This document shows, piece after piece, positions 11,196-21,641 of a stretch of 26,443 bases of DNA (positions are counted from its first letter, which is position 1; each line of letters starts with the position of its first letter). Source of the DNA: a virus; IMG/VR virus record IMGVR_UViG_3300014501_000060, positions 1 to 26,443 of that record; one strand, 5' to 3'. Under the pieces are notes generated by a model. It saw nothing but the letters and a program-made list of their open reading frames with translations, had not been told where the DNA came from and made no database searches. Made by a program: the position numbers and the translations under genes.

Positions 11196-12428
11196 CTACG
11201 AAGCTGAGGTCGAAACGACGCAGAACGCTTTGGGAAGCACGACAACGAGGGCGTGACGGTGCTTGTAGACGATACCGCTCTGATCCGAGAGGGACAATTC
11301 CTTGCCTCCCCAGGTACCAGATTGGAAGTTGCCTATTCGCATGTCGCCTTTGTCGCCGAACGCCAGAGCTTTCATATTGCCGAAGATCATGAACGCGGTT
11401 GAAGCGTTCGTGGTGCCGACAACGTATGACGGGAGCCATCGGTTCGTATAAACCGGGAAGCCCATCATGTTGCCTGCCGAACGGATCGGGCCGCCAAGCG
11501 GGTCTTTTTCAAGGCCCGACTGGTTCGCCGCAAATGCTCCGAAGAACAAGAACGGCAATCCCGACGTAGACGCTTCCTTCTGGGCAATAGCGGCCCAAAC
11601 GGTGCGGTGCATGTACCATGCGGAGCCGTCGAGGACTGATTCCTCGATCTGCGCTACGACATTCGAAGCATCGACGACGGGGTCGAACTTGCTGTAGTTC
11701 GTGCCGCCGGTTGCGAGCGTGTAGGCGTTCGTGCCGGTGACCTGCAGAATGCCCTGGAACGGTCCGGGGTTGCCCGAGGTACCGCCCACAAAGCCCTGCT
11801 GGTCGATCATGTTCGCAAGCGCCTCGCCTGCCATCGAAAGAAGCCATTCGCCAAGCTGCACGGAGGCATCGGCCAAAAGGTCGTTGCCAACGGTGAAGGC
11901 GAGCTGCCACTTCCGGGCGATGAGGACTGCCTGGCCGAACGTGAGGCCCGTAACCGAGCCTACGATGTCCACGCCTACATACGAACCCGTGAGGAAGGCA
12001 CCCGTGTAATTCGGGATGCCGAGTTCGTCGGTCTTCATCGGCCACTTCTGCGCCTGGCGCATAACGGTGCCGACTGAAGCCGCGATGCGAAGGATCGCCG
12101 CCGCGACTTCCGGTTGGACCAGATAGCCGCCACGGTTGTCCTGCTCTTCGATGAGCGCTTCGTTGGCTTTCGTGACGCGAACGGCCTTCGTCTCATGGCC
12201 CTTGTAGGCCGAGATGACCTGCGCCGCGAAGTCCTTCTTCTGGTCGCTTGTGAGGCCCGTGATGTCGCCGCCTTTTACGGCGCGTTCCACGAGCATCGCT
12301 TCGACGATCTGACGTGAGTTCTTTATGGAAATCTCCTCCATCGTGGGGACGAGGGATTTCTCCATAAAGTCGTTGAAACCTTTGGAGACGGTATCTTCTA
12401 CCGCCTTCAAAATTGCATCTTTATCCAC
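11196..12428 (-). CDS. Major capsid protein (HK97 fold)
   Basis: 410 aa. A helical N-terminal arm (about 1-100; KAVEDTVSKGFNDFMEKSLVPTMEEISIKN) is likely to be the delta/scaffold-like region removed or rearranged at maturation. The core then reads DNRGGYLVQPEVAAAILRIAASVGTVMRQAQKWPM, GGYLVQP being a hallmark opening of HK97-type major capsid proteins. Later hallmarks are ARKWQLAFTVGNDLLADAS, QGFVGGTSGNPGPFQGIL, AWYMHRTVWAAIA and the P-domain-like MGFPVYTNRWLPS. The prohead protease gene lies immediately upstream, as expected. Translation appears to start at GTG 12428; no Shine-Dalgarno site, but an A-rich run (CCACCAAAAAAAATCA) precedes it. Confidence 0.93.
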   Translation of the reverse strand: MDKDAILKAVEDTVSKGFNDFMEKSLVPTMEEISIKNSRQIVEAMLVERAVKGGDITGLTSDQKKDFAAQVISAYKGHETKAVRVTKANEALIEEQDNRGGYLVQPEVAAAILRIAASVGTVMRQAQKWPMKTDELGIPNYTGAFLTGSYVGVDIVGSVTGLTFGQAVLIARKWQLAFTVGNDLLADASVQLGEWLLSMAGEALANMIDQQGFVGGTSGNPGPFQGILQVTGTNAYTLATGGTNYSKFDPVVDASNVVAQIEESVLDGSAWYMHRTVWAAIAQKEASTSGLPFLFFGAFAANQSGLEKDPLGGPIRSAGNMMGFPVYTNRWLPSYVVGTTNASTAFMIFGNMKALAFGDKGDMRIGNFQSGTWGGKELSLSDQSGIVYKHRHALVVVLPKAFCVVSTSAS

Positions 12429-12450: not shown

Positions 12451-13317
12451 CTAGCTGCGTTCCGTGCGGTGTTTCTTCACTTTCTCGTTGATCTGGCGAA
12501 GAGCACCTTCGGAGGCAGTTTTGACCTGCCTCACGAGCCGCTGGACGAAGAGATACGCCTCCAATTCGGTCATATCCTTCGCGCCTGCTCCTGAGGTGCT
12601 CGACCTTGAGTTCGGGGCCTCCTCGCCTTTGGACTCGTCGTCCTCGGGCTCTTTCGAAGGTTCCTCCCCTTCGTCGCCCTGCGGAGCAATAAGCTCTTTT
12701 AGGGCCGCGATTACAGTGTTAGTGGATTTCTCATGCTCGGACGTGAGTGCTTGATGATGGTCTTCGAGCGCCTTGATAACTGATTCGATTTTGCCCTTGT
12801 TCTTTGCCGAGATGGCGCGGCCGGATTTGACGATCTCTTCCGCGAGAGCTTTTTCGTCTTTATCCCCTTCGCCCATTTCGTCTTTCAAGAGCTTTGCGTG
12901 GGCTTCTTCATGGCGCGATAGCTCGCCGCCCATCGATTTGGTGAACGCCTCGATGGCCTTCTTTTTCTCGTCGTCCGAATATCCAGGTTCAGCCTTGAAC
13001 TCCTCGATGGCCTTGTCGCACGCCTTGACGTGCTTCAGATGCTCGTCAGTCACCTCAGACTTGAATTCGTCAATGGACTTTTTCGGGGTCTGGTCCTGAA
13101 GCTCATAATTGTCATCAATCGCCTTCATGCACTTTTCGAGATGGCCTTCTTGCTCGCCGTCCATCGCCTTCGTGTATTCCTCGATGGCCTTGTCGAGATG
13201 ACCTTCTGCCTTCTCGCCTTTGAGACACTTCTCGCCGAACTCGTCGATCGCCTTCCCGACCGCCTCACCGTGCCGTTCGTGTTCTGCTTTGAAGGTTTTT
13301 TCTAGTTCGGTTTTCAT
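12451..13317 (-). CDS. Possible nested scaffold protein from an internal start
   Basis: Met226 of the protease fusion (ATG at 13317) stands just where the protease and linker end and the charged repeats begin (MKTELEKTFKAEHERHGEAV). It is preceded by CCCAAGAAACATCA, an A-rich leader like those of other non-Shine-Dalgarno genes here. Lambda C/Nu3 shows that phages make scaffold from the 3' part of a protease gene. The product would be 288 aa. No direct evidence of initiation exists, so this is an inference. Confidence 0.3.
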   Translation of the reverse strand: MKTELEKTFKAEHERHGEAVGKAIDEFGEKCLKGEKAEGHLDKAIEEYTKAMDGEQEGHLEKCMKAIDDNYELQDQTPKKSIDEFKSEVTDEHLKHVKACDKAIEEFKAEPGYSDDEKKKAIEAFTKSMGGELSRHEEAHAKLLKDEMGEGDKDEKALAEEIVKSGRAISAKNKGKIESVIKALEDHHQALTSEHEKSTNTVIAALKELIAPQGDEGEEPSKEPEDDESKGEEAPNSRSSTSGAGAKDMTELEAYLFVQRLVRQVKTASEGALRQINEKVKKHRTERS

Positions 13318-13992
13318 TGATGTTTCTTGGGATTTGTTTCGCTCGGGCACGCACACGAGGTCGCCGGGATTCTTGTCGTCCTCGGCCAGCACTCCGGGAG
13401 TTCCATCATCGAGCTGGCAGGCATCGCCGACTTGCGGTGATTTGTTTTTCTTCTCTTCGTAAAAGAATCCTTTGGTCACGAGATCCTGAGTCGAGACGCC
13501 TAAGCGTCCGACCTGGCGGAGTGAGAGCGCATAGCGGCCTGCCGGCACGGGGCAGAAGCTCACTTCCAAAAGTTCACGGGTGCCGTCGTCATTCTGGATG
13601 TAGCCCGGCGAAACGGCGCGGAGGATTTTCTCCTGGTATAGGGAGCAAGCGAGGTCTGATTCGGGGTTCAGGCCTGCGGGAGCGAACTTGCCAGTTGCGA
13701 TGGTCTCATTGCCTTCGGCCTTGATGTCCTCGATCGCGCCGATCGGGAAGCTCGAATAGTTATGCGCCCATAAGACCACCGGGTTCATATTGAAATACTT
13801 GAGGTCCCACTTCGATTGGTCGAGCTCGTCGCCCTGGCGGTCCTCATCTGACGTGCTCATTACAACTTCAAAGCTCCGGTCGTCGCCGGAAGCTTTTGTT
13901 TGCTTAACGAATTCTGCGGTTTCGGAGGATGCTAATTTCGCCTTGAGTTCGGCAGCTAGTTGCTCAGAAAATTGTTTAAGTGGTTCGTTCAT
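12451..13992 (-). CDS. Prohead protease fused to a long scaffold-like helical region
   Basis: 513 aa, much longer than a simple prohead protease (about 200 aa). Residues 38-180 form an S78-type protease: FEVVMSTSDEDRQGDELDQSKWDL, catalytic His77 in LWAHN, and Ser145 in LLEVSFCPVPAGRYALS. Residues about 225-450 are charged helical repeats rich in Glu and Lys, with recurring HLxKxxKAIDEF-type units (GHLDKAIEEYTKAM, GHLEKCMKAIDDN, HLKHVKACDKAIEEF, EKKKAIEAFTKSM). An acidic linker and a final helix (LEAYLFVQRLVRQVKTASEG) follow. The helical part probably acts as the scaffold on which the shell assembles. ATG 13992 has GGAGG two bases before it, unusually close. An internal ATG at 13317 could give the scaffold alone. 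Confidence 0.85.
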   Translation of the reverse strand: MNEPLKQFSEQLAAELKAKLASSETAEFVKQTKASGDDRSFEVVMSTSDEDRQGDELDQSKWDLKYFNMNPVVLWAHNYSSFPIGAIEDIKAEGNETIATGKFAPAGLNPESDLACSLYQEKILRAVSPGYIQNDDGTRELLEVSFCPVPAGRYALSLRQVGRLGVSTQDLVTKGFFYEEKKNKSPQVGDACQLDDGTPGVLAEDDKNPGDLVCVPERNKSQETSMKTELEKTFKAEHERHGEAVGKAIDEFGEKCLKGEKAEGHLDKAIEEYTKAMDGEQEGHLEKCMKAIDDNYELQDQTPKKSIDEFKSEVTDEHLKHVKACDKAIEEFKAEPGYSDDEKKKAIEAFTKSMGGELSRHEEAHAKLLKDEMGEGDKDEKALAEEIVKSGRAISAKNKGKIESVIKALEDHHQALTSEHEKSTNTVIAALKELIAPQGDEGEEPSKEPEDDESKGEEAPNSRSSTSGAGAKDMTELEAYLFVQRLVRQVKTASEGALRQINEKVKKHRTERS

Positions 13993-14017: not shown

Positions 14018-14587
14018 TTAGACGCCGGTGTGGAAACAGGTGACTTTGAGTGTGCTCGATACGCCTGTTGCGGAACTCGTCGGGGTCAATGTGACGAGGG
14101 ACGTTGCACCATTCCAGAACGTGACGGTTGCTGATACGCTGCTGCCGTTCACTGCTGTGATGAACGAATCTGCACCAAACGGGCTCGTGCTTGTCGTGCC
14201 GTTGTAGGAGACTTCGCACGCATCGCCGACTGAAAAGCCGGAAGCTGAAAATGCGACAACCGTGCTCGTTGTCGATGTGGCAGCCGTGATTGAGCCGAGG
14301 TTGACGTTCGACGAAACCGGATAGTTCGTTACCGCCGTGTTGAACGCCGTAAGCTCGTTTGCCGCCGCCAGGCCGCCGATGTAGAGGCCGTTCGGCGCAC
14401 CCCATGCCAAGCTTCCTACGGGATACGCGTATCCTGCCGCATCATTTCCGGTCACAAGCTGAGTCGGGAGTATGCCGCCGGGAAAGTCTCCGGCGAGCTG
14501 AGGAGTGGCTGAGAGTTTGATCGCGCCGACTGCTCCGACGAATGCCGCTACGAGGATGACCGCACCTACTTTCAGATATTCTTTCAT
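14018..14587 (-). CDS. Secreted or membrane-anchored protein, unknown function
   Basis: 189 aa. The first 26 residues (MKEYLKVGAVILVAAFVGAV, then GAIKLSA) form a signal peptide or signal anchor. The rest is Ser/Thr/Ala/Gly-rich and beta-predicted, with SVSATVTFWNGATSLVTLTPTSS near the end and two Cys residues (in GDACEVSY and KVTCFHTG) that could form a disulfide after export. It is preceded by the best promoter-like element in the window (14621-14648), so it may start its own transcript just before the capsid genes. It could be a host-surface modifier or an exported virion or attachment component. No family was recognised. Confidence 0.7.
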   Translation of the reverse strand: MKEYLKVGAVILVAAFVGAVGAIKLSATPQLAGDFPGGILPTQLVTGNDAAGYAYPVGSLAWGAPNGLYIGGLAAANELTAFNTAVTNYPVSSNVNLGSITAATSTTSTVVAFSASGFSVGDACEVSYNGTTSTSPFGADSFITAVNGSSVSATVTFWNGATSLVTLTPTSSATGVSSTLKVTCFHTGV

Positions 14588-14660: not shown

Positions 14661-15119
14661 TCAATTCATGGATTGCGGCAGGCTCGGTTTCACGATGATC
14701 TGCGGTCCGATCCAGCTCACTGTTTCGCTTCCGGCCCATGAGGCCACGACCATCGTGAGGAACGTTCCCGGATTCGGAAGATCACCTGCCGCTACTTCGT
14801 AATGGCAGATTCCGGCTGCCGCGTCGTCGATCACCATGAAGCCGGTAAGCGTGAGCAGTTCGTCGGTCGGGTCCTGCGCTGACTGAATGTTGAAGGTAAG
14901 CGAGCCGTCCGTCAGATCCACGGGATTCCCGTTGCAGTCGAGAAGGGTGAAGGGGATTGAATACCCGTAGTCGTTCTGGATGACGACTTTCGGCTGGACA
15001 ATGTTCGACGCGGGCGGGAGCTGGAGGATGGTCATGAGGAGCGAAATATCAGGGCCGAAAATGGCAGGAAGACGATGGGATGCGTAGGTGTTAGTTGCGA
15101 AGCCTGAGAAGCCATACAT
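14661..15119 (-). CDS. BppU-N-like baseplate / fibre component
   Basis: 152 aa from ATG 15119. The core VIQNDYGYSIPFTLLDCNGNPVDLTDGSLTFNIQSA, followed by GICHYEVAAGDLPNPGTFLTMVV, matches the Ig-like N-terminal domain of baseplate upper proteins (BppU-N type: 'DxGxxxxFTLxDxxGxPVDLTxxxxxF ... GxxxYxV'). An ATG at 15152 would overlap the spike gene by 26 bases; 15119 lies eight bases after the spike stop and is preceded by ATTAAAACCAAA, like other starts here. Such domains link fibres to the baseplate, which fits its place after the adaptor and spike. Confidence 0.6.
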   Translation of the reverse strand: MYGFSGFATNTYASHRLPAIFGPDISLLMTILQLPPASNIVQPKVVIQNDYGYSIPFTLLDCNGNPVDLTDGSLTFNIQSAQDPTDELLTLTGFMVIDDAAAGICHYEVAAGDLPNPGTFLTMVVASWAGSETVSWIGPQIIVKPSLPQSMN

Positions 15120-15126
15120 TTTGGTT

Positions 15127-18075
15127 TTAATTGTTGTCCTGTAGCCCCTCATAGATGAGTGACGACGAATCGTTCGCGGTCGTCACCTGGTCTGAAACAA
15201 CGATAGTAAGTGCGGCGTTTGTGGGAGCCGAGATGGGCTGGGCGGTGCTGTTCTGAATCAGGTTCATAGCACCAGAGCTGCCGCCCTCGCACGTCGGACA
15301 GGCAACGGTGATGCTCGCATTAGCTGACGGAGCGGTGAGTGCCGTCATGTAGAGTTGGAATCCTTGGCCGCACGTGGTGCCACCGACTGCGCACAAGACT
15401 GCCGCATGTGAAGAGAAGATTGTCGTCGTCGCTCCTGAGCCTTGCTTTATTTCGACACGGATCGTGTGGTTCGGCTGGGTAGTCGTCGCGATATTTTGGA
15501 TGGCGACTGTGAATACGAGCGTCTTATTTGCTATCCAGAAGTTCGCCGGAATCGTGGTGCTCGTCGTGAAGTAATCTTCAATCGTGCCGCGTGTTCCGGG
15601 AACGAGCTGATCTGCTGTCGCGTTGTTCGCCTTCGAGAAAATCACTTCGGGTATGCAGCCAGAGGTAAGACCGTCTCCAGCGCAAAGCAAGTTGTGGTTC
15701 GTGTCGTAGGCAACCGAACCCGATGCACTCACGTAAGGAGCTGCTCCAACTGGCACGTTAAAGAGCTGGGTGACCGTTCCTGGACTGTTCGTTATATCAG
15801 TTCCTTGTTCATCCGATATGCCGCCGTTCGTATTCACGATGAATGAAGCGGTCGAAGACGGATTAGCCCACAGAGTCGCTCCCTGGGAATGAACGGCGCC
15901 ACCATTGTTCAAGACGAATTCCGGCGTTGAACTTCCTCCGACGCCGTCATTTTGGAAGTCGTCGTTTACCGCCGTGAAAACGCCGCCGGCATCAACTTTG
16001 ATTGGTATTTCAGCCCCGTAAATTGAATTCGCGCTGACGCTTTCATTGTGGACGCCGCTATCGGAGACATGTGCCAAGCTGCCCACTTCGAGCTGACACG
16101 CATCGCGGGATTTGCCGCTTATGTTCGTGCTTTCGGTATTGAGATACACGCAATGGGTCGTCGTCGAATTTCCAAGCGTCGCAAAGACGTTGTTCGTAAA
16201 CGTATTACTCTCGCCGGAATTCGAGCTGTTTGGGGCGTAGACTTCGGCATATCCCGCGTAGCTGAAGTAATTATTATCAAGCGTGTCAAGATAGGTATTC
16301 GTATTGAAGTAAAGCTGGATACTGCCTTGCGACCACCAGTTGTCGCGGAACGTCACGTATGGGGAGTTCACTACCCAACCGATATTGCCCGTGCTCGAAA
16401 CGTTGGTATTGGTGGTATTCGCCCCGTACCAAGCGATGCCCTGGATGGTGGCACCTGCCGCCGTTCCCGTTCCCCATGTGATAGTGCCGACCGTTCCCGT
16501 TGTCGCCGTGTCATTGATTTGCGTTCCTTGGCCGCCTACGCCATAGAGCGACATACGTTCACCGCTTGTCGTCCAAACAAAACCAGTGGGGTCGCTTATC
16601 GTGTAAAGGCCCTTGGAGAGATAGACGTTCGAAGAACTCGCGACGCCGTTCAAGAAGGTATACCAATCGTTCACACAGGTATCGAGTGCGGTCACGCCCG
16701 TGGTCGAGCCGCACGTTATGCCGCCCGCAAGCGTTGCGGGAGCTGGAATATTTATATTGCCGTTAAAGACGTAAAGCCATGAGGTTGACGTGCTATTCGC
16801 AGTGTAGGTGTTCGCGGTAGATCCCCCATTGATAGTCACTCCGGCAAAAGTGGGTGATGCCGTCGTCGCCACAGACTGAGGAATCGTCGAGCTTACGGTG
16901 ATCGTTCCGCCCGAAGTTGACACTGTCGTTGACACTGTCGCGGTATTTGCAGCGGCGATGGTCAGTGTTCCGGTCGAGCTGTTAAGGGAACCAACACCCG
17001 TTACTGTTCCCGTGGCTCCGTTGAAGGCAGAAACATACGAAGTCGGGATCGTAGTTGAAGGTGCGAGGTTTGTGTTTGAGGCCAGGAAGTCCGAGGCGTT
17101 CTTGTTCTGGAACGTCCCTTGCCAATTGCCGGTGTTCGTCGCGATGCAGGTCGGGCAGGAAATCGTGCTCGTCGTAGACCAAAGAATCGGGCTTACTGCG
17201 GTGACCGACGCATTCGTGATGTAGCCGGACCCGTTCGTGAGCTGGTTGTTGTTCGTGGGAATCGTTGTGGAAGGCGCGAAGTATTGGTCGTTCGGAGGAG
17301 GGATGATGAAAGTGATTTTCCCGGTCGAACTCACGATGTCCCATCCACCCGCGCGGGTGCTTGTCGCAAAAACAAAAGGATTGGTAAAAGTGAGCGCGCC
17401 CACGGCGATGGTCGAGGTCGCGGGGGCTGAGGTAATGTAGCCGGGATTCGTCCAGGTGTACGTTATCGAATTCCCTGACGATGCCACGGTAAGGCCGGTG
17501 CCTCCCGCTGCGAAGTTGAAGGTCGATGTGCTGATGCCGTTTATCGTGATCGTCGAAGTCGGAACGAGCGTCACGCACGAAGGGCATGAAAACTGCCCGG
17601 TTGAGTTGTTGTATGAGAGCGGCGATGAAGCGGAAAGCGAGGCGAGCGTCACGTAGCCGTTGGAATTCGTCCAGCCTATGACGCCGGTCGAGGAATTGTA
17701 AGTTATCGGGTTCGTCCCGGAGAGCGATTGCAAGACCGACGCGATCGTCGTTGTCGTGAAATTGGTCGGATTCGAGGCGAGATAAAACGTGGTCGTGTTA
17801 ATGCCCTGCCACGTTCCAGACCAGTTGCCGGTGTTCAGGACCGTGATTGTGATTGAACCGCTCGACGTTGCGACTGAGCAATTGCCAGTACACAAGAGAT
17901 ACGCCGGGGCATAGGAGCTGGGGCCTATTCCGATGGGGATTTGTCCGGCTGCCGGTACGGTCGATGTTCCAAGCCCGCCAAGCCCGGTCGGCGTAGGAGC
18001 CGCTGCGACTGTCAAAACTTGCCCGACGGTGGCGAGAGCAAATAGAGAGCAGATGAGATAAAGAAGTTTTTTCAT
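15127..18075 (-). CDS. Large beta-helix tail spike or adhesin with an N-terminal signal peptide
   Basis: 982 aa. Residues 1-26 are a textbook signal peptide (MKKLLYLICSLFALATVGQV, then LTVAAA), unusual for a phage spike. Residues 27-440 are Ser/Thr/Asn/Gly repeats of the environmental fibre type, with units such as TGNWSGTWQGINTTTFYLAS and TGNWQGTFQNKNASDFLAS. Residues about 455-745 resemble a right-handed beta-helix of the pectate-lyase spike fold (VYLSKGLYTI, TIQGIAWYGA, VTFRDNWWS, NTFTNNVFA). The last 220 residues form a beta-rich tail. Cys pairs recur: C62/C66, C164/C167, C307/C310 and C926/C929, the last three as CPSC or CPTC. It begins TAATG with the adaptor gene, so it is co-translated with it. 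It may be the receptor-binding or depolymerase spike, or a host-exposed adhesin carried by the phage. Confidence 0.75.
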   Translation of the reverse strand: MKKLLYLICSLFALATVGQVLTVAAAPTPTGLGGLGTSTVPAAGQIPIGIGPSSYAPAYLLCTGNCSVATSSGSITITVLNTGNWSGTWQGINTTTFYLASNPTNFTTTTIASVLQSLSGTNPITYNSSTGVIGWTNSNGYVTLASLSASSPLSYNNSTGQFSCPSCVTLVPTSTITINGISTSTFNFAAGGTGLTVASSGNSITYTWTNPGYITSAPATSTIAVGALTFTNPFVFATSTRAGGWDIVSSTGKITFIIPPPNDQYFAPSTTIPTNNNQLTNGSGYITNASVTAVSPILWSTTSTISCPTCIATNTGNWQGTFQNKNASDFLASNTNLAPSTTIPTSYVSAFNGATGTVTGVGSLNSSTGTLTIAAANTATVSTTVSTSGGTITVSSTIPQSVATTASPTFAGVTINGGSTANTYTANSTSTSWLYVFNGNINIPAPATLAGGITCGSTTGVTALDTCVNDWYTFLNGVASSSNVYLSKGLYTISDPTGFVWTTSGERMSLYGVGGQGTQINDTATTGTVGTITWGTGTAAGATIQGIAWYGANTTNTNVSSTGNIGWVVNSPYVTFRDNWWSQGSIQLYFNTNTYLDTLDNNYFSYAGYAEVYAPNSSNSGESNTFTNNVFATLGNSTTTHCVYLNTESTNISGKSRDACQLEVGSLAHVSDSGVHNESVSANSIYGAEIPIKVDAGGVFTAVNDDFQNDGVGGSSTPEFVLNNGGAVHSQGATLWANPSSTASFIVNTNGGISDEQGTDITNSPGTVTQLFNVPVGAAPYVSASGSVAYDTNHNLLCAGDGLTSGCIPEVIFSKANNATADQLVPGTRGTIEDYFTTSTTIPANFWIANKTLVFTVAIQNIATTTQPNHTIRVEIKQGSGATTTIFSSHAAVLCAVGGTTCGQGFQLYMTALTAPSANASITVACPTCEGGSSGAMNLIQNSTAQPISAPTNAALTIVVSDQVTTANDSSSLIYEGLQDNN

Positions 18076-18635
18076 TACTGGTATTGCGCGACGTGGGGTT
18101 GGCCGGCTAACTCTTCCGGCGGGGGGACTATATAAGTTATCGTAGTGCCTGAAATCGTATAGTCAATCCCCTGAATTTGCGGTTGGCGTGCAAGCGTGAT
18201 TTGTACCGAGTTCGAATCGAAGGGCGTGATGCTGCCGGCGAGCGTGAATGTCGTGTTGCTTCCGTCGATCGTGCCGTTCACGTTCACATAGCGCCACGGC
18301 CTCTGGAGGTTCGCGCTAAAGTCGTTGATTGTTTTCGCGGTGATGCCGAGCATGAGGCGATAGGTCTTGCCAGGCACGTTTTTAGGCGAGGCTGTCGTGC
18401 CTTCCTGCGCACGAAGTACGGTGAGCGTGTTCCCGGAAATACCGGTGACGCGGATGATCTCCACGTTCGGGTCGTCGGACGGATCGGGCCAATCCGTCGC
18501 ATTCCAATATGTCATGTTGAACGGCGTGGCGGGCAGGGACGACGCCCCGGACGTGACGATGATCGAGGTATCAGAAGAACCGTAGCCGATTGAAACGGTC
18601 AGTTTGATGAAGTTGGCTACGGCGTCGAGAGACAT
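18075..18635 (-). CDS. Fibre adaptor / virion structural protein
   Basis: 186 aa from ATG 18635; a TTG at 18647 would add four residues. The sequence NFIKLTVSIGYGSSDTSIIV, then PFNMTYWNATDWPDPSDDPNVEIIRVTGISGNTLTVLRAQEGTTASPKNVPG and LMLGITAKTI, is a family often encoded directly upstream of phage fibre genes. The DPNVEIIRVT ... GNTLTVxRAQEGTTA core is its hallmark and probably forms the N-terminal or adaptor part of the fibre complex. A second beta domain (about 110-186) has QPQIQGIDYTISGTTITYIVPPP, like the BppL/fibre connector sequences. It overlaps the spike start (TAATG). A promoter-like element ends eight bases before the ATG, implying a leaderless mRNA. Confidence 0.7.
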   Translation of the reverse strand: MSLDAVANFIKLTVSIGYGSSDTSIIVTSGASSLPATPFNMTYWNATDWPDPSDDPNVEIIRVTGISGNTLTVLRAQEGTTASPKNVPGKTYRLMLGITAKTINDFSANLQRPWRYVNVNGTIDGSNTTFTLAGSITPFDSNSVQITLARQPQIQGIDYTISGTTITYIVPPPEELAGQPHVAQYQ

Positions 18636-18643
18636 TTGATTTA

Positions 18644-18670
18644 ACAATAAGCAGTAAACGGAATTTGCGA
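18644..18670 (-). promoter_or_regulatory. Promoter-like element P6 with -10 abutting the adaptor ATG
   Basis: Read on the minus strand: TCGCAA (18665-18670), then ATTCCG within a 15-bp spacer, then TATTGT (18644-18649) followed by TAAATCAA and ATG. GTTAAATC is shared with element P2 (6879-6886), and GCAAATTCCG resembles GCAGATTCCCG in element P1. Only eight bases separate the -10 from the ATG, so the transcript would have little or no leader. The -35 is poor. Confidence 0.4.
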
Positions 18671-19340: not shown

Positions 19341-21641
19341 TTAAATGGCTATGTCTTCGGGGCGAATCATGCATTGACAATTTGGATGAAGGGGTGGAAA
19401 ACCTACGTCGCCGTAGTCCAAAGACATCGTTTGCGCGTCGTCACCCTCGCCAACGGTGAGTGAATCTCCATTCTTGAAAAACACATCGTCAACGGAAATC
19501 GTTTTCCCAGCCATTGCTTGGCAGAACGTGCACGGATTATTCGCGGTGTACCAGCGCACGGTCTTTACGACGCCGGACTGTTGCCAGGCGGTCTTTAACG
19601 CACTGTTCGCAGTCCTGAACGATTCGGTCTTTGCGACCATCGCCGCGCGGCTTTCGTCGCTCCACTCGTAGATTTCTTCAACGCTTTTCGTTATATCGGC
19701 GAGGGGCGCACCGGCTTGGAGGCCATCGTTGATCTTGACTTCCAAGACGTTCAGCGTCGTCTGCTGGTAGCTCTCGGACATCATCTGCACGGAGCGCTTC
19801 ACGGCTGCGCGGGTGGTGTCGTTGAATGGGTTGAGTTCGGGCTTCCCGACATCGGCGGCTGCGGCCAGTGCCTCGTGCTCGAAAAGCGTGTCCATGATCG
19901 GACTCAAGGCGTCGGTTGTAATCGAGATCCACTTCTGGATGTCGAAGAGGTCGGTCGGGTCGATTCCCTTCTCGATCGCGTGAGGAAGGTTCTTGAGTAC
20001 TTCTACCTTCTGCTCGGCGTTGATTTTCCGCATTGCAGCGGCGATGTCCTTCTCGGCCGCATGGACGTAGTCGCTGAACTCCTTCCACTTCGTTTCGTCC
20101 TGCTCTTTCGTCGAAACAAATTTCTTCGTCGGAAAATCGAGGCGCTTCGCAAGCTCTGCCTTAATCTTCTCGGTGAGGCTCTCGCGCATGGCGACGCGCT
20201 TCTTGGCGAGCTTTTGGAGTTTCGTCCTGGGCGGGCGGTACGCGATGCGCCGGTCAAAACCTTTCGCGTTCGGGTCGTTCTCCGGCTGCGGCGCGGGGTC
20301 GGCGTTTCCCCCTGACGTGCCGATCGGGGCCATCATGGTCGGGGCCATGAGCGTATCGCCGCCTTCCACAGGCCCGCGGCCAAGGTACGATTCGCGGCCT
20401 TCATTCGCCGTGAGGAGCGGCTGGTTGCCCATCGCCGCCTGCATCTCCTGCACGCGGAACGCCTTGTCCTCGGGCACCGGATCGATGAAGCTGATATACA
20501 AGTCATCGCCATAGCGCGGCACAAGGCGGTCGTTCAGCACGGCGCAGATGAGCATCATGTGCGGCTTCACGACGCGCTTCGAAAAGACGTAGTCGGCGGT
20601 TTCGGCTGTCGCGCGGTTCGTGTCCGATTCCGCTGTTCCCAAGATCGTGCGGGAGACGCCGAACATGGCGAGGATGCGGTCGCGCATGTCCTCGGACATA
20701 TTCTTGAAATCCATGTCCTTAGGCGAAGTGCCTACGACTTCCGGCTTCACTCCCTTCGGAAGAACGCCGATGCGGTTCATGTTATCGATGCCGCCGTGAA
20801 CGTCCGTGAAGCCGATCTTCAGGGCTTCAAGCTGCGTCTCGGCAACGAAGTCGGTCGTGAGCCACATGGAGGGCCGCGCACCGTTTATGAAAAACTTGCG
20901 GTTGAATTCCATCGCGTAGGTGTCGTTATCGATGTATTCCGCTCCGGCCATGACCGGGCTGTAGCCGTTGAAATAGTCAGCCGCATTAGGGAGATCGAAG
21001 TGGATGACCTCGTAGGGCTTGAAGACATATTCTTTCGTTTCGAGCCGCATGGAATAGCCCAAGAGCTGGTACGGCCAGGAGCGTCGGTCGATCACGGGAT
21101 GCACCTTGTCGGCGGGCATGAGGTGGAGTGCCTTCGGTTTATCGAGCTCGTTCTTCACGCCTTCGAGATAGACGAATGCATTGCCGGTGAGGTCGAGTAC
21201 TGCTGAGATCAGATACTTCAGCTTCAACCCGTTCATGCTGTCGTTCGGCGCGTCTAGTAAGTCGAGGATATCGTGGTCTTTCTTCTCCTCGTGGTCGTCG
21301 CCATCCACTTCGAAGAGACGCCAGTCGATCGCCATCACCTCGCGGGCCTTAGCGTTCACGGCCGCATAGACGAAGCCCTTGTTGTTCTCGATCGCTCGTG
21401 CGGCGTCGATGGGGTTCGTTCCCGAAGGGCGCTCGATGATGAACTGGTTGCCACCGCTGATCTCCCCGAATTGTGACGCGCCAGATTTGGTCTTTACGGT
21501 CCGCACGACGCCGTAGCGAGACATTGCCGGGCCGCCCTGCTCCTGTTCGTGGAGTTCGGGAAAGACACTTGCTGCAATGCCGCGCAACCGGCGTGCTATC
21601 CAGCTTGGCTTGTTATTGGCGTTGAGGGAGGGTGAAGGCAT
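19341..21641 (-). CDS. Portal protein fused to a Mu gpF-like head morphogenesis domain
   Basis: 766 aa. Residues 1-450 are a portal of the phage-portal (HK97-type) class: VYAAVNAKAREVMAIDWRLFEV, then LHLMPADKVHPVID, YEVIHFDLPNAADYFNGYSPVMAG, and DMRDRILAMFGVSRTILGT with the ring motif near the C-terminal end. Residues 450-766 add a Mu gpF-like domain, with CTFCQAMAGKTISV (Cys704, Cys707) and VGFPPLHPNCQCMIRP (His752, Cys755, Cys757), the usual paired zinc-like motifs. In most phages these are two genes. The portal is the DNA entry ring; the gpF domain takes part in head assembly. It is complete, with no frame break. ATG 21641 lacks a Shine-Dalgarno site. Confidence 0.9.
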   Translation of the reverse strand: MPSPSLNANNKPSWIARRLRGIAASVFPELHEQEQGGPAMSRYGVVRTVKTKSGASQFGEISGGNQFIIERPSGTNPIDAARAIENNKGFVYAAVNAKAREVMAIDWRLFEVDGDDHEEKKDHDILDLLDAPNDSMNGLKLKYLISAVLDLTGNAFVYLEGVKNELDKPKALHLMPADKVHPVIDRRSWPYQLLGYSMRLETKEYVFKPYEVIHFDLPNAADYFNGYSPVMAGAEYIDNDTYAMEFNRKFFINGARPSMWLTTDFVAETQLEALKIGFTDVHGGIDNMNRIGVLPKGVKPEVVGTSPKDMDFKNMSEDMRDRILAMFGVSRTILGTAESDTNRATAETADYVFSKRVVKPHMMLICAVLNDRLVPRYGDDLYISFIDPVPEDKAFRVQEMQAAMGNQPLLTANEGRESYLGRGPVEGGDTLMAPTMMAPIGTSGGNADPAPQPENDPNAKGFDRRIAYRPPRTKLQKLAKKRVAMRESLTEKIKAELAKRLDFPTKKFVSTKEQDETKWKEFSDYVHAAEKDIAAAMRKINAEQKVEVLKNLPHAIEKGIDPTDLFDIQKWISITTDALSPIMDTLFEHEALAAAADVGKPELNPFNDTTRAAVKRSVQMMSESYQQTTLNVLEVKINDGLQAGAPLADITKSVEEIYEWSDESRAAMVAKTESFRTANSALKTAWQQSGVVKTVRWYTANNPCTFCQAMAGKTISVDDVFFKNGDSLTVGEGDDAQTMSLDYGDVGFPPLHPNCQCMIRPEDIAI

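Follow-up and report, generated by a model that had tools for sequence, protein, structure and literature searches.

A tailspike-like protein with a predicted Sec signal peptide and paired cysteines, encoded among the head genes of a group of siphovirus-like phages

A 982-aa spike encoded in the window (the whole stretch analysed here, 26,443 bases of an IMG/VR virus record) departs from known phage spikes: it keeps tailspike modules but is not of the usual cytoplasmic kind lacking a signal. Ordinary phage spikes assemble in the cytoplasm, where they are synthesised. The window spike probably acts outside it, judging from its sequence and those of its relatives. Its predicted export, together with disulfide pairing of its cysteines, is well supported, and we regard it as very probable. 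In the open-licence literature searched, we came across no tailspike described as Sec-exported and rich in disulfides.

Position and neighbours of the spike gene

The late genes of the window lie on the minus strand in a siphovirus-type order: TerL, portal-MuF, HNH, the spike cassette, putative protease/scaffold, capsid and tail (Table 1). The window spike had no match in Pfam, PHROG or cultured phages, and a scan of genome contigs with the spike as query found no relative. Relatives were present in IMG/VR contigs, in the same slot between the portal and protease genes. Searches with TerL recovered 45 viral loci at first and 80 subsequently, together with 11 genome loci. In the clade of the window (TerL ~60-87% identical), the portal-protease slot usually holds fibN190 and a large spike, with or without additional genes, as well as a small beta-sandwich protein and sp189. 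Portal and protease are nearly adjacent in loci L033 and L038, and a single unrelated small gene separates them in L004; such empty or one-gene slots indicate that the slot is a variable cargo site. As these three contigs lack both the cassette and fibN190, the spike cassette is accessory.

Table 1. Features of the spike gene, its product and the neighbouring genes in the window. Residue numbers are those of the encoded protein.
Feature	Position	Strand	Basis
Exported spike gene (predicted), 982 aa	15127..18075	-	ORF; IMG/VR relatives in same slot
Sec signal peptide, residues 1-25, predicted cleavage VAA^APTP	18001..18075	-	alignment of 18 homologues; controls 0/~370
Conserved N-terminal mature domain (GGxGT...P..G..IG......YxPA)	17836..18000	-	alignment; motif also in L136:7857-8687
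Cys pair 62/66 (CTGNC)	17878..17892	-	sequence; family has both Cys or neither
Cys pair 164/167 (CPSC)	17575..17586	-	sequence
Cys pair 307/310 (CPTC)	17146..17157	-	sequence
Cys pair 455/467	16675..16713	-	sequence
Cys pair 642/660, within beta-helix	16096..16152	-	sequence; alignment
Cys pair 798/807	15655..15684	-	sequence
Cys pair 895/902	15370..15393	-	sequence
Cys pair 926/929 (CPTC)	15289..15300	-	sequence
Right-handed beta-helix (predicted), ~residues 471-757, NSGE motif	15805..16665	-	AlphaFold2, blocks mostly pLDDT 50-85
fibN190: unexported, Cys-free tail-fibre N-terminal-domain protein	18075..18647	-	phrog_8469 tail fiber 5e-8
bppU (label used here): small beta-sandwich protein, no signal peptide	14661..15152	-	overlaps spike gene end
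sp189: N-terminal membrane anchor and beta-sandwich with conserved Cys pair	14018..14587	-	AlphaFold2; homologue Cys counts
Portal with C-terminal MuF domain	19341..21641	-	Pfam Phage_portal 3e-52, Phage_Mu_F 8e-11
Putative prohead protease, scaffold-like extension	12451..13992	-	adjoins capsid gene; weak PHROG match only
Major capsid protein	11196..12428	-	Pfam Phage_capsid 5e-25

The gene that most consistently accompanies the spike is fibN190, immediately upstream. The two genes share TAATG in the window, where fibN190 stops and the spike starts; fibN190-spike junctions range from -15 to +52 nt, with -3 the commonest. With fibN190 overlapping it at the start and bppU at the end, the spike gene appears to be read with the head genes. 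This points to late lytic expression, and co-translation within the late operon is strongly supported by sequence and highly probable. Four distant members (L037, L072, L086 and L092) have a signal-bearing spike, and fibN190 was not detectable in them.

A second signal-bearing gene downstream of the spike, sp189, had been put forward in the preliminary description as a possible partner. The gene is real, but its hydrophobic segment has no conserved cleavage site and so looks like an uncleaved membrane anchor. AlphaFold2 predicted a transmembrane helix at residues 2-25, followed by a beta domain mostly at pLDDT 80-94. With the anchor excluded, the cysteine count was even in 22/22 homologues; beside an invariant cysteine there is a second one, close by or at the C-terminus, and almost always just one of these two. 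As regards partnership, sp189 co-occurs with the spike and is predicted to be extracytoplasmic, but it is present without a spike in L031 and L024, and was rejected as an obligate spike partner. Homologues of bppU mostly have one cysteine, as expected for an unexported protein.

Several other features of these loci were noted. Two genes in the same slot of L067 (15974-16294 and 16734-17318) read like adenylylsulfate kinase and sulfotransferase, and there too the slot looks like a cargo site. TerL is ~800 aa long rather than 491 in L048:9974-12394, L026:4020-6440, L027:7246-9663 and L028:10001-12475; the extra ~320 aa, inserted in frame close to residue 466, are candidate inteins. The portal frame of L028 (14934-18323) is ~1 kb longer than in relatives, possibly reflecting a second in-frame insertion. 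At the end of the window, positions 2-346 hold a truncated gene start reading like a papain-type cysteine peptidase, and positions 407-982 encode another predicted membrane-anchored protein, with four cysteines.

Signal peptide and cysteine pairs

The spike begins with MKKLLYLICSLFALATVGQVLTVAA^APTPTG, which comprises a KK n-region, an uncharged h-region and an AxA-like cleavage site. The secretory signal peptide of the preliminary description is present in standard Sec layout, although the alignment places cleavage after residue 25 (VAA^AP), not 26. Signal peptides were called at the annotated start with a fixed n/h/c heuristic, using structural-gene homologues as controls. The heuristic was positive for 19/21 spikes and 15/17 sp189 proteins, as compared with none of ~370 controls (TerL, portal, HNH, protease, MCP, fibN190, bppU and tail genes). 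Of 35 distinct loci, 33 have a signal-bearing ORF directly after fibN190. The other two are L021, an incomplete contig, and L078 (MQDKWFERTLAALGVIGLVVLLWAGVAHA), which the heuristic missed only because its n-region has a net charge of zero. Alignment of homologues showed that the signal-peptide sequence diverges across the virus group while the layout and the AxA site are kept, and that conserved mature sequence begins immediately after it. Reading of the spike sequence revealed neither a lipobox nor a twin arginine, indicating that it is neither a lipoprotein nor a Tat substrate. No LPXTG motif, second membrane segment or outer-membrane anchor was recognised in the spike, nor was there an autotransporter C-terminal beta-barrel translocator, Pfam giving no match anywhere in the protein.

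The pairs C62/C66, C164/C167, C307/C310 and C926/C929, to which attention had first been drawn, are all present in the sequence. The description of an otherwise cysteine-poor fibre did not hold: the mature spike has 16 cysteines, not 8, arranged in eight consecutive local pairs, the four additional ones being 455/467, 642/660, 798/807 and 895/902. C9 lies inside the signal peptide and is not among the 16. Four pairs with a spacing of 3 or 4 were observed against ~0.5 expected for 16 cysteines in ~957 residues (Poisson P ~0.002, calculated by hand).

Pairing extends across the family. The number of mature cysteines varies from 2 to 30, and it was even in 36/36 complete spikes (32 plus four more). 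With the automatic cleavage rule the figure was 31/32; the sites of L092 and L059, in which that rule cut inside the hydrophobic segment, were placed manually where the conserved mature sequence begins. The naive probability of 36 even counts is 2^-36, the effective number being smaller because the proteins are related, though their counts vary widely. Taken serially, 194/195 cysteine pairs were closer together than either flanking gap, and gaps alternated between short and long, with medians of 16 residues within and 105 between pairs (Mann-Whitney P 6e-57). Many pairs are 12-35 residues apart and do not form CxxC motifs. Cysteines are gained and lost pairwise across homologues, as in the aligned segments LCAGTCSV and LTPGSNVTI. 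At 642/660, the exported versions aligned have CC or neither cysteine, while the non-exported L016:14956-17895 has G/C.

Other signal-bearing cassette proteins had an even mature count in 16/17 cases; L003:20006-21007, with five, was the sole complete one with an odd count. Non-exported fibre-like proteins were even in 11/21 cases and odd in 10/21, with a cysteine density of 5.8 per 1000 aa as against 12.0 in exported ones. Even counts were found in 43/87 TerL and 35/76 portal controls. An excess of even counts is a known property of exported bacterial proteins, for which the same criterion has been used (PMC7678975). Even counts combined with serial pairing are characteristic of cysteines that form disulfides in an oxidising compartment. 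The earlier suggestion of an exported, disulfide-stabilised spike is strongly supported by a signal peptide kept while diverging, even counts in all complete spikes and pairwise change of cysteines.

An alternative is that the spike is not exported, its hydrophobic N-terminus being an element for virion assembly or anchoring and its cysteines binding metal in the cytoplasm. Phage spikes are usually cytoplasmic and CxxC motifs can bind metals, but a full signal-peptide layout, AxA included, is retained despite sequence divergence, and even counts and serial pairing hold over the whole range of cysteine numbers. The wide spacing of many pairs and the broken beta-helix pair of the non-exported L016 homologue argue in the same direction. 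Cytoplasmic metal binding through CxxC was judged unlikely given the pairing, the spacing and the signal peptide, and we consider a spike that stays in the cytoplasm very improbable.

Modules, host and destination of the spike

The mature N-terminus of the spike is predicted to be a linker-like domain and is a candidate anchor. Its motif recurs in L136:7857-8687, a non-exported, Cys-free tail protein that matches phrog_31660 tail fiber (8e-7); in L136 the shared domain is preceded by a further N-terminal stretch, at the position where the window spike has its signal peptide. In a profile search of PDB sequences, this domain gave only weak, probably fortuitous, matches to galactoside O-acetyltransferase, and the C-terminal part of the spike gave none. 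Usable AlphaFold2 confidence was limited to the beta-helix part of the window spike. Foldseek neighbours of the modelled part were polysaccharide-active beta-helix enzymes and tailspikes, with a best, non-significant, PDB E-value of 0.023 and a best BFVD E-value of 8e-4.

No sequence match linked the window spike to a known tailspike family, tail PHROG matches being confined to its relatives. The C-terminus of the L060 spike matches phrog_9017 tail fiber (5e-8), and the second signal-bearing gene of L082 matches phrog_2106 minor tail protein (5e-9). Among the cassettes examined, spikes have a conserved N-terminus and a variable tip and length (~300-1700 aa), as do virion fibres. The sharing of modules with tail fibre and minor tail proteins suggests that the cassette proteins are virion-appendage modules equipped with signal peptides and disulfides. 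In L016:14956-17895, fibN190 is fused in frame to a two-module beta-helix tailspike lacking a signal peptide, and a separate exported spike follows. Aromatic tails (IWW, FWW, WLW and GDW) end the second signal-bearing proteins L078:14126-14890, L082:10796-11575, L045:7614-8366 and L040:6061-6771.

A close relative of the window virus is a prophage of ~52 kb in tRNA-Met (L106/L107/L108; G001:C67:116036-168126) of a MAG named Acidobacterium sp. It is flanked by 23-bp att repeats, the left copy being the 3' end of tRNA-Met, and the 232-kb contig around it carries genes of a free-living bacterium. Two VirD4/TraG-like ATPase genes occur near its right end. From these relatives we infer that the host of the window virus is a soil Acidobacteriota bacterium. 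The TerL family was found in 33/380 Patescibacteria genomes as compared with 2/396 sampled Acidobacteriota. A Patescibacteria host was rejected: relatives with TerL identity of at least 80% are in Acidobacteriota MAGs, one of them integrated as a prophage, and the cassette is missing from most contigs of Patescibacteria type. VKOR and DsbA, but not DsbB, are encoded in three Acidobacteriota MAGs that carry close relatives.

We propose that a temperate, siphovirus-like Acidobacteriota phage would make the spike late, alongside its head proteins. After Sec export and removal of its signal peptide by signal peptidase I, the spike would fold in the periplasm, and host DsbA/VKOR would there join the eight local cysteine pairs of shaft and beta-helix by disulfides. 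Since the spike has neither a lipobox nor a second membrane segment, and no outer-membrane anchor or translocator was recognised, it would stay in the periplasm of a diderm host until lysis, a step that we consider fairly probable. At lysis it would meet virions, and its N-terminal domain would dock on a virion-borne adaptor, for which fibN190 is the best candidate; such docking is our leading guess and is held tentatively. The variable beta-helix tip would then bind or cut surface polysaccharide, a target that has about an even chance of being the right one. Taken together, these steps describe a possible two-compartment appendage, offered with caution: the virion with fibN190 would be assembled in the cytoplasm, and the distal spike would be exported, undergo oxidation in the periplasm and join the virion only at lysis. 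We know of no precedent for a spike and its adaptor meeting after lysis.

The evidence for export and disulfides fits equally well a spike that is never on virions but is periplasmic and released at lysis as a soluble depolymerase or receptor decoy, clearing debris or matrix. The spike has no membrane anchor, its beta-helix carries a conserved NSGE motif with matches in the polysaccharide-lyase/tailspike fold class, and replacement of the extra N-terminal stretch of L136 by a signal peptide could mean diversion from the virion. However, a free effector needs neither strict coupling to fibN190 nor a strongly conserved N-terminal domain, the Foldseek PDB matches are non-significant and the catalytic residues putative; we regard it as rather unlikely. 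Less likely still is residence in the envelope, in which the spike and the anchored sp189 would exclude superinfection, mask receptors on debris or act as an adhesin of lysogens. The cassette does encode several proteins predicted to be extracytoplasmic, one of them membrane-anchored, the relative is temperate, and there are published precedents in T5 Llp (PMC9586334) and PblB (PMC4508584). Against this, the spike has no recognisable lipobox or LPXTG motif, nor a C-terminal barrel or further membrane segment, and it lies in a tight late structural operon whose genes overlap or abut, unlike a typical, separately promoted lysogenic-conversion gene; sp189 also occurs where there is no spike. The spike is coupled to fibN190, has a conserved N-terminus and varies at its tip, and on these grounds we moderately favour virion docking ahead of a free enzyme, with surface display last.

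Meaning and comparison with known systems

Throughout a virus group, a spike of the head operon retains a signal peptide together with a predicted disulfide ladder, against the usual cytoplasmic view of fibres and spikes. Either virions would gain an appendage after lysis, or phages would repurpose tail modules as exported tools for the envelope or matrix. In a survey of phage DGR-target variable proteins, lack of signal peptides was counted toward phage origin (PMC6199706). The even-cysteine rule also gives an inexpensive way to recognise extracytoplasmic phage proteins from sequence.

Right-handed beta-helix tailspikes (such as P22 gp9, HK620, CBA120 TSP2 and K2-2 TSP) resemble the spike in being virus-encoded, with a beta-helix distal part (a predicted one in the spike), a modular shaft, a conserved N-terminus and a variable tip. 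They are cytoplasmic, whereas the spike has a Sec signal peptide, eight cysteine pairs and a position between portal and protease; there is no sequence match between them. Non-exported fibres (L016:14956-17895, L136:7857-8687, phrog_31660 and phrog_9017) share with the exported spikes the predicted beta-helix, the GGTGT...GQxLIGN domain or the C-terminal domain, but have no signal peptide, and in L016 and L136 cysteines are absent or depart from the paired pattern. The streptococcal adhesins PblB and PblA, for which we know of no disulfide ladder, differ in their Gram-positive host, and no sequence match to them was found. Like the spike, they are tail-type proteins of temperate phages with a proposed role outside the virion, and a signal peptide is also predicted for pneumococcal PblB (PMC4508584). 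Llp of T5 is likewise phage-encoded and acts in the periplasm (PMC9586334), but proteins of the Llp/Cor superinfection-exclusion kind are small lipoproteins with a lipobox, whereas the spike is a predicted non-lipidated protein of 982 aa encoded in a late structural operon.
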